Source of the DNA: a bacterium
Lineage (GTDB): Bacteria > Actinomycetota > Acidimicrobiia > Spongiisociales > ZC4RG35
Direction: 5' to 3'
Assembly: GCA_028819345.1 (NCBI GenBank)
Contig: JAPPLW010000099.1
Location: 210,931-274,930, forward strand
DNA: 64,000 nt
The notes beneath the pieces were generated by a model. That model was not told where the DNA came from and made no database searches. It saw only the letters and a list, made by a program, of their open reading frames with translations. The translations under genes were made by a program, and so were the position numbers. Shown piece after piece: positions 38,830-42,917 of this stretch; the stretch's first letter is position 1; every line of letters begins with the position of its first letter.

Positions 38830-38849
38830 ACCCGGAGAGATTAGGAGGG

Positions 38850-39182
38850 GTGGGAAGAGAGGTCGTGAAAAAAGGGGGACGCAAATCCGCCGGTGAAGGT
38901 TGACTCCTGTCACAGCCCCGATGCACATTGGCTGGGTCGAACACCTCCCGGTCCGTTCCGACGTCGTCCGGACCGTACAAGTGAGCCCCTTGGCGAGCAG
39001 GAGGTCATATCTCTTCCAAACGCGGTCCCCCGGTCGGGACGGGTGGAACGCGTTCGGACCTGCGGTGGTGGCGGCGGGGGATGGGCCCTGTGGCGATTAG
39101 TGCGGGGCCGTTTTTCGCGACACAGAGAACCGATTCACGGTTTCTGCGTGGAACCGGCGAGGCCTCCTCGCCAACCCCTCTA
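38850..39182 (+). repeat. dispersed non-coding repeat, copy A (candidate structured ncRNA)
   Basis: Aligns in direct orientation to 42580..42917; GGTTGACTCCTGTCACAG, CGAACACCTCCCGGTCCG, TGCGGTGGTGGCGGCGGGGGATGGGCCC and CCGTTTTTCGCGA are shared; indels are not multiples of 3. Confidence 0.85.
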
Positions 39183-39758
39183 ACCCTTCGCCTTGGCCTG
39201 AGCGGCCTTCTTCATCTCCCGCTTCATCGCCCGCAACTCGGCGACATCCTCCCAGCGGGCCACGTCGGCAATGGAGGGACGCTGGGCGGCCTCCTCCTCC
39301 CAACCGGGTGGTTGGACCCCCATGCGCTTGCCCAAAATGCCCACGAACACCCGCGATTTCATCTCCCCGTACCCGGGCAGGCTCTTCAGGCGCTTGTACA
39401 AGTCCCTGCCGTCCTCAGCTTCGTTCCAGAGACGCTCTGCGGCGCCGTCATACTCCTCGACCAGGGTCCGGCACAGAGCCTGGGTGCGCTTGGCCATGGA
39501 CGCCGGGTAGCGATGTATGGCGGGAGGTCCCCGGAATATGGCGGCGAGCTCCTCGGGATCCCAATCGGCGATCTCACCAGCGTCAAGCGGCCCGCCCAGC
39601 CGCTCCTGAAGCAGGTACGGACCGAAGAACGCTCGTTCCATGGGGAACTGCTGATCGAGCAGCATCCCGATCAGAAGCGCCAGACTGTCTTCCGCCAGCA
39701 GCCGGTCGGCGTCGGGATTGTTGGTCCAGGGAAGAGACTCGGGAGGGCTGATAGTCAT
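39180..39758 (-). CDS. HhH-GPD-type base excision DNA repair protein
   Basis: LLIGMLLDQQFPMERAFFGPYLL...LYKRLKSLPGYGEMKSRVFVGILGKRMGVQPPGWEE HhH region. Confidence 0.82.
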   Translation of the reverse strand: MTISPPESLPWTNNPDADRLLAEDSLALLIGMLLDQQFPMERAFFGPYLLQERLGGPLDAGEIADWDPEELAAIFRGPPAIHRYPASMAKRTQALCRTLVEEYDGAAERLWNEAEDGRDLYKRLKSLPGYGEMKSRVFVGILGKRMGVQPPGWEEEAAQRPSIADVARWEDVAELRAMKREMKKAAQAKAKG

Positions 39759-39832
39759 CGGTCTACCTGCATTGTCGGGTTATCTAATATCAGCCACAAT
39801 CGAAGCAAACCGAGCAGAAACGAGGATCGACG

Positions 39833-41191
39833 ATGGCTCAAAGGAAGTTTACTCTCGCCGAGTCCCAGATACCCACCAGTTGGTACAACATCATTCCTGA
39901 TTTGCCGGCGCCGCCACCTCCGGTGCTTCATCCCGGAACGCATCAGCCGGTGGGCCCCGACGATCTGGCTCCTCTCTTTCCCATGGCGCTCATCCTCCAG
40001 GAAGTGTCAGGGGACTCCCGGATCGACATCCCCGGGGAGGTCATCGACGTGTATCGAATGTGGAGGCCCACTCCCCTGTACCGCGCCACCGGCCTGGAAA
40101 AGGCTCTCGACACGCCGGCTCGCATCTATTACAAGTACGAGGGAGGGAGCCCGGCCGGCTCCCACAAGCCCAATACCGCGGTGGCCCAAGCCTTCTACAA
40201 CGCTCAGGAAGGCGTCAAGAAACTGACCACCGAGACCGGCGCCGGGCAGTGGGGTTCCGCCCTCGCCCTGGCCTGCGCCATCTTCGGAATGGACTGTGAG
40301 GTCTGGCAGGTGCGGGCCTCCTTCGACCAGAAGCCCTACCGCAAGTCGATGATGGAGGTATGGGGCGCCAAGGTGCATCCCTCGCCTTCCGATGTGACCA
40401 ATGCCGGACGGACCGTGCTCGAATCCGATCCCGACTCGCCGGGGAGCCTGGGGATCGCCATCTCGGAGGCTGTCGAGGTGGCCGCTACCAATGCGGATGC
40501 CAAATACTCGCTGGGGAGCGTCCTGAATCATGTCCTGTTGCACCAGACCGTCATCGGCGAGGAGGCCCTCGATCAGATGGCCATGGCCGGGGACACCCCC
40601 GATGTGATAGTGGGTTGCACGGGAGGAGGCTCCAACTTCTCGGGATTGATGTTCCCCTTCCTGCGGGAGAAACTGGCCGGGAGGATCGATCCGGTCATCA
40701 GGGCCTCGGAGCCTGCCTCCTGTCCCTCCTTCACCAAGGGCGAGTACCGGTACGACTTCGGGGACACCATCGGGATGACTCCGCTCATCAAGATGCACAC
40801 TCTCGGCCACTCCTTCATACCCGACCCGATCCATGCCGGGGGCTTGCGCTATCACGGCATGTCTCCTCTCCTCTCCCACATCTATGACCTGGGGCTGATA
40901 GAGGCGGAGGCCATCGGACAGAACGAGTGCTTCGCTGCCGGCGTCCAGTTCGCTCGCACCGAGGGCATCGTCCCCGCTCCCGAACCCACCCACGCATTGG
41001 CTTCGGCCATCCGGGTGGCCAACGAGTGCCGGGAGAGCGGCGAGGAGAAGGTGATCCTCACCGCCATGTGCGGTCATGGCGCCTTCGACATGGCCGCCTA
41101 CGACAACTATCTCGCCGGCGGGCTGACCGACTACGAGTACCCGGACGACAAAGTCGCCGAGGCCATGCAGCGGATCCCGGTGGTGGGCTGA
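39833..41191 (+). CDS. trpB2: TrpB-like PLP-dependent enzyme (TrpB2 type)
   Basis: [38 protein letters not shown] (PLP Lys), [28 protein letters not shown]. Confidence 0.92.
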
Positions 41192-41204
41192 GGGAACCCG
41201 ACTC

Positions 41205-41247
41205 GGACAACGCGGTTGTCCCGGCTGGAGCGGCCAGGACAACCGCG
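41205..41247 (+). promoter_or_regulatory. mutually exclusive hairpins downstream of trpB2
   Basis: H1 GGACAA(41205-41210)/TTGTCC(41216-41221); H2 CGCGGTTGTCC(41211-41221)/GGACAACCGCG(41237-41247); they share the TTGTCC arm. Confidence 0.6.
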
Positions 41248-41301
41248 GGTCCCCATCCCGGCCGCCATCGGCCTTCCGTCTGTCCATAGACTGGCGTTGC
41301 C

Positions 41302-42483
41302 ATGGTGAACAGGCGGATCGGCGTCGAGGAGAGGCGAGCGCGTCTGGCGTCCCGCCACCATCTCCACCCCGACCACCGGGCGTCTTCACCGGTGGAAGCC
41401 GCCCGCCACCAGGTGGGACTTCACACCAGCGATCCTGCCACCCCCTTCCTGTCCGCCTGGGCGAGGGTGGACGATCTGGCCATCCCTGACATGGAAGTCT
41501 GCCTGTATGAAGACCCCTCCCTGTTCCGGATTCTGGGCATGCGGCGGACTCTGTTTGCGGTTCCCACCGACTTGATCCCCTTGCTCCATCATGGGTGTGC
41601 GGTCCCCTTGGCGGCGCCCGAGAGGCGTAGATTGGCGGGTTATCTAGAGGCCGAAGGGATCACCGATGACGGACACGGTTGGATCGAACGGGTGGGGGAC
41701 GCCACCGTGGAGGCAATCATGAACCGTGGACAGGCTCTGGCTACCGAACTCCGAGAGGATGTGCCCGAACTCAAGGAGACCCTCACCTTCGGCAAGGGGA
41801 AGAAGTGGGGAGGAAAAGTCGGGGTTTCCACCCGGATGCTCTTCCTTCTGGCTACCGAAGGGCGCATCCTTCGAGGCCGACCCCGGGGAACGTGGCGTAG
41901 CGGTCAGTACCGCTGGACAACCATGGCGAGAGTGCTGCCCGCCGGCATTCCCGAACTCGACCCGGCGGTGGCCCGAAAAAACCTCGTTGAGCGGTGGCTG
42001 CGCGCCTACGGACCGGGGACCGAGGCGGACCTGAGATGGTGGACGGGCTGGACCCTCCGGAATCTGAGACCGGCGCTCGGAGCATTGGACCTGGCCGAGG
42101 TCGAGGTCGATACCGGCCCGGCATGGGTCATGGCGGACGACCTCGACCCGGTTCCCTCCCCCGGTCGGTGGGCGGCGTTCCTTCCCGGCCTCGATTCCAC
42201 CGTCATGGGATGGCGGGAGCGCCACTGGTATCTCGGAGACCGGTGGGAAGGGCTGTTCGACAGAAACGGCAACGCCGGACCCACCGTGTGGTGGTGCGGC
42301 AGGGTGGTGGGGGGATGGGGCCAGAGACCTGACGGGAGGGTGGTCCACCGCCTGACCGAGGACATCGGCGCCGACGGGCAGGCGGCCGTGGCCCATCGCG
42401 CCCGGGACCTGGAGGTCTGGCTTTCCGGAGTCCGGGTGACTCCCCGTTTCCCCACTCCCCACTATCGGGAGTTGTCCCGCTAG
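41302..42483 (+). CDS. winged-helix DNA-binding domain protein (HTH_42/AlkZ-like superfamily)
   Basis: HQVGLHTSDPATPFLSAWARV...ATELREDVPELKETLTFGKGKKWGGKVGVSTRMLFLLATEGRILRGRPRGTWRSGQYRW pattern of the family. Confidence 0.82.
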   Translation: MVNRRIGVEERRARLASRHHLHPDHRASSPVEAARHQVGLHTSDPATPFLSAWARVDDLAIPDMEVCLYEDPSLFRILGMRRTLFAVPTDLIPLLHHGCAVPLAAPERRRLAGYLEAEGITDDGHGWIERVGDATVEAIMNRGQALATELREDVPELKETLTFGKGKKWGGKVGVSTRMLFLLATEGRILRGRPRGTWRSGQYRWTTMARVLPAGIPELDPAVARKNLVERWLRAYGPGTEADLRWWTGWTLRNLRPALGALDLAEVEVDTGPAWVMADDLDPVPSPGRWAAFLPGLDSTVMGWRERHWYLGDRWEGLFDRNGNAGPTVWWCGRVVGGWGQRPDGRVVHRLTEDIGADGQAAVAHRARDLEVWLSGVRVTPRFPTPHYRELSR

Positions 42484-42579
42484 CTAAGGAGCAGGCGGGG
42501 GTTTTCCCCAGTGGAGCTGGGAGCGAGCCGGCAATCGGTGGAGAGCCATCTAGTAGGTGTGGAGTTCGTGACCCTAGGG

Positions 42580-42917
42580 TGGTGGAGGTTGGGAGGAAGT
42601 CGCGAAACAAAGGGCAGAAAGTGGCGGGTGTGGGTTGACTCCTGTCACAGGCCCGGTGCACATTGATGGAGTCGAACACCTCCCGGTCCGTCCCGACGTC
42701 GTTCGGACCGCACCATGAGCGCACCTGGCGCGCAGTGAGGTCATATCTTCCCGAAGGCGTCCCCCGGCCGGGGCCGGCGGACCGCGTTCGGGCCTGCGGT
42801 GGTGGCGGCGGGGGATGGGCCCGATGGGTGAGGAGAGCCGGCCCGTTTTTCGCGAGACAGCAGACGACTTCGCGGTTCCTGCTTGGAACCGGGAAGGGCT
42901 ACCCGGTCATCCCCTCA
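42580..42917 (+). repeat. dispersed non-coding repeat, copy B (candidate structured ncRNA)
   Basis: Direct-orientation homolog of 38850..39182; core GGTTGACTCCTGTCACAG at 42633 onward. Confidence 0.85.

Follow-up and report, generated by a model that had tools for sequence, protein, structure and literature searches.

The window analysed here, a stretch of 64,000 nt from an Acidimicrobiia contig, contains two similar segments and raises the question of whether they belong to a dispersed repeat, to a family of RNA genes or to both. The original prediction placed two direct copies at positions 38850-39182 and 42580-42917, and these positions and the shared orientation were confirmed by blastn and direct reading. 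Copy 1 aligned with copy 2 at 80% identity over 322 nt (query 10-331), and the gap-free blocks were 80, 84 and 73% identical. The 89% identity claimed for the start of the core was correct (8 differences by direct reading over the core's first ~78 nt), all the invariant blocks listed were found in both copies, and the 1-nt indels were confirmed, with no reading frame maintained between the copies. A protein-coding gene was excluded because the family alignments contain many indels whose length is not a multiple of three.

When the window's own genome (G000, 2.8 Mb) was searched with blastn, seven matches were obtained at E<1e-4, and a long exact pattern matched 11 times, its reversed control never. 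With a sequence profile derived from 75 diverse family copies there were 45 matches at E<=0.1, 34 at E<=2.4e-8 and 30 at E<=7.3e-11; the top match, with 115.9 bits, was the predicted RNA of copy 2. This is a repeat family far beyond chance, of about 35 copies in this genome. Several of these copies sat at contig ends, as expected because repeats break assembly. A genome-wide family of interspersed elements, the first half of the original interpretation, was thus recovered by blastn, pattern and profile searches alike; the own and related genomes yielded many more copies, conserved in relatives, rather than no further copy.

All six genomes of the window's genus (g1) carried at least 23 copies each by profile, and nearly all genomes in another family of the same order (f6; genera g23, g43 and g48) also had at least 23. 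The other genera of the window's own family gave at most one marginal match each in the profile search. Across a sample of the class, 19 of 395 genomes, from 4 genera, carried the family and the rest were without it. When 84,980 species genomes were scanned with a pattern, the matches listed comprised Acidimicrobiia or unlabelled MAG contigs and one Streptosporangiaceae contig (L102), which was taken as a chance match since the profile does not recognise it. Collections of viral, plasmid and phage sequences contained no family member. Where the lineage of copies was known, those of g1 and f6 belonged to different sequence subfamilies, and record names alone suggest that many hosts are sponge-associated MAGs. 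Rfam gave 0 matches in the 64-kb window, so the known RNA family that could have explained the copies did not appear there; 6S RNA likewise had no match in the window. Four other copies searched at permissive thresholds gave chance-level matches only. As a predicted RNA, the family is previously undescribed and has no Rfam relative.

The order of parts was constant among copies: a variable TTGA, TGTCAC, 10 nt, a YANNNT box, AAxCACC, hairpin P2, GGGATCA/GAGGTCA and hairpin P3, followed by GGNGGNGGN-GGGGG, GGGCCC, a variable piece and a final TTTTCGCG. Both boxes were recognised in 58 copies, and in at least 53 of these TGTCAC and YANNNT were 10 nt apart. The promoter-like composite matched five times in the whole own genome, all on family copies, compared with 0 matches for the control. 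An origin from the 3' end of 16S rRNA, with which the family has the words GGAUCA and CACCUCC in common, was rejected as the order is not collinear. The features of the two window copies are given in Table 1.

Table 1. Features of the two family copies, in window coordinates
Feature	Position	Strand	Parts	Basis
Copy 1, whole inserted stretch	38846..39180	+		Filled/empty site comparison: absent in G001 and G002, orthologue in G003, G004 and G005
Copy 1, promoter-like composite (putative function)	38900..38929	+	TTGACT 38900-38905; TGTCAC 38908-38913; 10 nt; CACATT (-10-like) 38924-38929	Own-genome pattern matches confined to family copies
Copy 1, predicted RNA	38936..39119	+	Putative start ~7 nt past the -10-like box; end at TTTTTCGCG	Alignment, covariation
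Copy 1, hairpin P2	38949..38975	+	CGGTCCG 38949-38955 / CGGACCG 38969-38975; loop palindrome GACGTC 38960-38965	
Copy 1, hairpin P3	39016..39057	+	CCAAACGCG 39016-39024 / CGCGTTCGG 39049-39057	Covariation
Copy 1, 3' part	39064..39119	+	G-rich tract 39064-39080; GGGCCC 39083-39088; terminator-like TTTTTCGCG 39111-39119	Invariant columns among 75 aligned sequences
Copy 2, promoter-like composite	42635..42664	+	TTGACT 42635-42640; TGTCAC 42643-42648; CACATT 42659-42664	
Copy 2, predicted RNA	42671..42854	+	Putative start; end at TTTTTCGCG 42846-42854	Alignment, covariation
Copy 2, hairpin P2	42684..42710	+	CGGTCCG 42684-42690 / CGGACCG 42704-42710; palindrome GACGTC 42695-42700	
Copy 2, hairpin P3	42750..42792	+	CCCGAAGGCG 42750-42759 / CGCGTTCGGG 42783-42792	
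Copy 2, G-rich tract and GGGCCC	42798..42822	+	Tract 42798-42814; GGGCCC 42817-42822	Alignment

An unrestricted covariation scan of all columns was rejected because subfamily differences dominated its signal; the helices were therefore tested within subfamilies and then formally. P2 and P3 together contained 93 doubly changed cells compared with 27.9 ± 6.3 in shuffled alignments (0 of 500 shuffles reached 93), and at most 43 were counted when the partner strand was slid by 1-3 columns. The second half of the original interpretation, a paralogous ncRNA, agrees with the RNA-type covariation of the conserved core. Both halves are supported, and the original observation is correct but understates the extent of the family. 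Folding energies were no better than those of dinucleotide shuffles (z of -0.36, -0.61 and -0.02); thermodynamic stability was dropped as evidence, and the structure claim consequently stands on covariation alone, which by itself would fit RNA or single-stranded DNA hairpins equally. In 61 of 75 copies the P2 loop contained a perfect palindrome of 6 nt, compared with 13.3 (maximum 23) in shuffled loops. Its sequence varied by subfamily (GACGTC, GGTACC, GAGCTC, GGCGCC and others) while the palindrome was kept, so self-complementarity itself seems to be selected, which would suit a kissing-loop dimer or DNA dyad. The (GGN) tract, in which the G pairs were invariant and the third letters free in all 75 copies, could form a two-tier G-quadruplex. 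The 3' T-run was conserved, and a hairpin preceding TTTTCGCG was formed in some subfamilies only, so that a terminator hairpin common to the family was rejected; termination at TTTTCGCG is weakly supported. A GGGG/CCCC hairpin flanking TTGA/TGTCAC was rejected by inspection, as its sides do not covary.

Placement was determined relative to genes called with a codon-model gene caller. All but one of 166 distinct copies (165) were intergenic and did not overlap called genes. For 91 of 136 copies the downstream gene was encoded on the other strand, which ruled out a cis-regulatory leader or riboswitch. Orientation was balanced in co-directional gaps (37 vs 32), as that of a leader would not be. 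Convergent gaps were strongly enriched, accounting for 59 of 136 copies and for 70 of 471 gaps without an element (OR 4.4, p=1.4e-11); divergent gaps were depleted (OR 0.16, p=6.5e-9). The copies behave as independent units. The convergent preference and the U-rich 3' end could point to a cis-acting element between convergent genes, such as a bidirectional terminator, an insulator or a 3'UTR stabiliser. However, such an element would not call for its own promoter-like composite and a large conserved interior, a consistent terminator hairpin was absent, and the copies faced both ways equally in co-directional gaps; we regard this account as very improbable. No gene family was enriched beside the copies; the largest cluster of neighbours (10 of 497) was metabolic. 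This bears on a guide-type RNA (omega-RNA/reRNA, with IscB or TnpB) or another protein-partnered RNA, for which a multicopy structured RNA tied to transposons would be expected. With no nuclease or other gene family enriched nearby, no Rfam relative and no variable guide segment recognised, it is hardly credible for this family.

Near-identical copies in the related MAG JAPOQZ (G369, a draft with 8% contamination) exposed the borders of an element outside the RNA. In a search of 15 genomes, G369 had 75 occurrences of the terminus TAGTGTCCYGANTC, most of them close to contig ends, and the others had 0-3 each; the RNA was present at 19 of the 20 sites that were fetched. Complete elements were 332-334 bp long with the 5' end of the RNA at the TGTCCCGAGTC side, 388 bp, or 347 bp, the last bounded by terminal inverted repeats (TIRs) with the RNA in the opposite orientation. 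All intact ends examined lay within C-TA...TA-G, the 332-bp element being bounded as C-TA[GTGTCCCGAGTC...ACAGGACAC]TA-G, and a search with one 332-bp element returned at least 40 copies in G369 at 92-98% identity. The copies in G369 have the make-up of MITEs: 332-347 bp, with the TIR GTGTCC...GGACAC, no transposase inside and at least 40 copies. G369 has a single fragment of a DDE_3 (PF13358, IS630-type) transposase gene, located at a contig edge; it ends in 'ACACAGGACACTAG', which equals the element terminus, and a complete IS was not found. TA duplication and a preference for CTAG would fit IS630-type elements. TIR-bounded elements with an IS630-type partner in related genomes were not visible to the original prediction.

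Such elements, together with the patchy distribution, would be expected of a purely selfish, non-autonomous DNA element whose core serves mobilisation at the DNA level, as single-stranded hairpins or sites for a transposase or host factor, with any transcript incidental. The convergent-gap bias is also typical of tolerated repeats, as in pneumococcal BOX/RUP (PMC3049150). This explanation predicts conservation of the TIRs. However, among 18 distinct type-I elements, 32 of 202 sites in the promoter and RNA were variable compared with 42 of 130 elsewhere (p=6.7e-4): TIRs and spacers varied more than promoter and RNA, and the promoter was the least variable part of the element in the burst. Nor does transposition need a -10-like box at fixed spacing, and the core stood in opposite orientations relative to the TIRs in two element families. 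We consider a selfish DNA element unlikely, while keeping it as a live rival.

The other live rival is a host sRNA family multiplied by ordinary duplication or recombination, with capture by a MITE a late accident in one lineage. Inverted repeats in the flanks were at control level across the family, and general TIRs around all copies were rejected, as TIRs were limited to subsets. The window copies do not carry the terminal repeats of a MITE, and the G369-type terminus had 0 exact matches in G000 and G003, both of the window's genus. The lack of a common TIR around most copies and of G369-type termini in the window's genus would suit a host gene, as would its capture in two orientations in G369. 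By contrast, TIR-like left ends (<=7 mismatches) were found upstream of 18 of 150 copies compared with 0 of 450 shuffled flanks, and in more than one subfamily; for host housekeeping it would also be odd that all other genera of the window's family lack the element.

Comparison of fixed positions among related genomes touched on both rivals. The pair of copies was syntenic in G003; G004 and G005 likewise had copy 1, and copy 2 was found in G001 and, at a contig edge, in G005. Core identity of syntenic copies was 88, 84 and 90% in the G003 and G005 comparisons, where near flanks were 71-84% and third codon positions 75-82% identical. The G004 comparison (core 97%, core and near flanks both 95-97%, third positions 81%) was uninformative because the copy 1 flanks were as conserved as the core. 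G001 and G002 had a short unrelated spacer at the copy 1 site, and G002 was also without copy 2, showing from filled and empty sites among species that copies come and go. Presence and absence between sibling species is expected of a selfish element, whereas cores that outlast their own flanks are not; fixed syntenic copies are what a host sRNA family would give. RNA units may thus be held at fixed positions under moderate constraint in old lineages, including that of the window. A host family with accidental capture is rather doubtful, though it deserves serious consideration.

We favour, with a probability of roughly 0.6, a new family of structured sRNA genes dispersed as the payload of IS630-type MITEs and retained elsewhere, because the dispersed family, its intergenic placement, the covariation, the syntenic constraint and the burst with its matching transposase end would all be accommodated. 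Each copy would be a self-contained small RNA gene with its own promoter, in which TTGA is followed by TGTCAC and this, at a distance of exactly 10 nt, by a YANNNT -10 box, and the predicted product a structured RNA of ~165-195 nt with P2, P3, a 3' tract rich in G, GGGCCC and an end rich in U. The family would spread as MITE cargo, with an IS630-family transposase that cuts at CTAG acting in trans; spread by IS630-type MITEs is proposed at least for f6. In old lineages, including the window's, the transposon ends may have decayed or may never have been of the G369 type. The likeliest role would be that of a trans-acting sRNA, possibly dimeric via the self-complementary P2 loop. From the sequences we infer transcription, its start and stop, dimerisation through the loop and action in trans. 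A more speculative and quite unlikely extension is that of a mobile RNA gene in which selection during bursts acts to keep the RNA product, because it aids the MITE or pays rent to the host; it might help its carrier, e.g., with the IS630 transposase, or the mRNA encoding it, as a target.

Among known systems, RUP and BOX of Streptococcus pneumoniae are short, dispersed, structured repeats enriched in convergent gaps; the RUP termini resemble those of IS630-Spn1, by which RUP is mobilised in trans, and RUP/BOX structures are co-transcribed with neighbouring genes, with the TIRs pairing together in the fold (PMC3049150). The family described here is likewise dispersed, structured and convergent-biased, with IS-matching termini in G369. 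Unlike RUP/BOX, it has a separate promoter-RNA unit deep inside the TIRs, which is less variable and persists without them. QMITE1 and QMITE2 of Coxiella burnetii, as cited in PMC10969869, are MITEs from which observed sRNAs originate; the likeness is a small RNA from MITEs, observed in Coxiella and predicted from sequence here. Unlike QMITE as described in that citation, the present family has a conserved covarying unit in two element types and opposite orientations, plus copies without MITE ends. Correia elements of Neisseria are non-autonomous and carry promoters that drive neighbouring genes, upstream of which they lie (PMC10969869). Our family resembles them as a non-autonomous element with a putative promoter; unlike them, its copies stay clear of the region upstream of genes, and each brings a structured RNA of its own. 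RUP/BOX is nearest in behaviour and QMITE in content, and by sequence the family belongs to neither.

MITE-encoded sRNAs have so far been isolated cases. Here, a conserved, covarying unit of putative promoter and RNA is present in tens of copies per genome and in two element types, and is less variable than its transposon shell within a recent burst. The alignment could serve directly to define a new RNA family from an uncultivated group, and whether the RNA is cargo, driver or tenant is now directly testable. If a mobile RNA gene were the true account, bacteria would harbour a parasite or commensal in the form of an RNA gene, one that swaps transposon vehicles (two element families with opposite orientations are seen) and passes from one distant lineage of the class to another. 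On the favoured reading, the family would be a case of paralogous sRNA expansion through transposition.

In the alignment of 75 copies of the multicopy structured RNA family, a tract of (GGN)3GG and GGGGG was invariant in every copy (75/75); such a tract could fold into a G-quadruplex of two tiers. Almost invariant in the same copies was GGGCCC, which is self-complementary. Boxes of the TTTCGCG type were an additional feature of copies from genus g1, found in the window and in the flanks of other g1 copies. The first box, CGCGAAAA, lay approximately 30 nt upstream of TTGA, the first box of the promoter-like composite preceding the predicted RNA, and the second, TTTTCGCG, followed closely downstream of the first. 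These boxes are possible protein-binding sites.

Coordinates of features in the window
Feature	Position
Intergenic DNA and copy 1 compared with G004	38830-39180
Interspersed repeat (~68 bp) upstream of copy 2	42497-42565
TTTCGCG-type box	42601-42607

Identity to contig C7 of the related genome G004 was 95-97% across intergenic DNA and copy 1, whereas the flanking genes were only 81% identical at third codon positions, suggesting local exchange. The ~68 bp repeat, distinct from the RNA family, was absent from the corresponding site in G003; other copies occurred in G001, G003, G004 and G005. In G369/JAPOQZ, a second MITE of ~105 bp (CTAGGAGGGTGCTGAGCAATC...GATTGTTCAGCACCCTCCTAG) immediately adjoined the RNA-carrying MITE (L182, L118, L087 and further loci), and both were inserted at CTAG.

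When recognized copies were excluded, CCGGTCCG/CCGGACCG and CGCGAAAA still ranked among the most frequent intergenic 8-mers across all fetched loci, so there are probably additional degenerate copies beyond those that the 75-copy profile detects.
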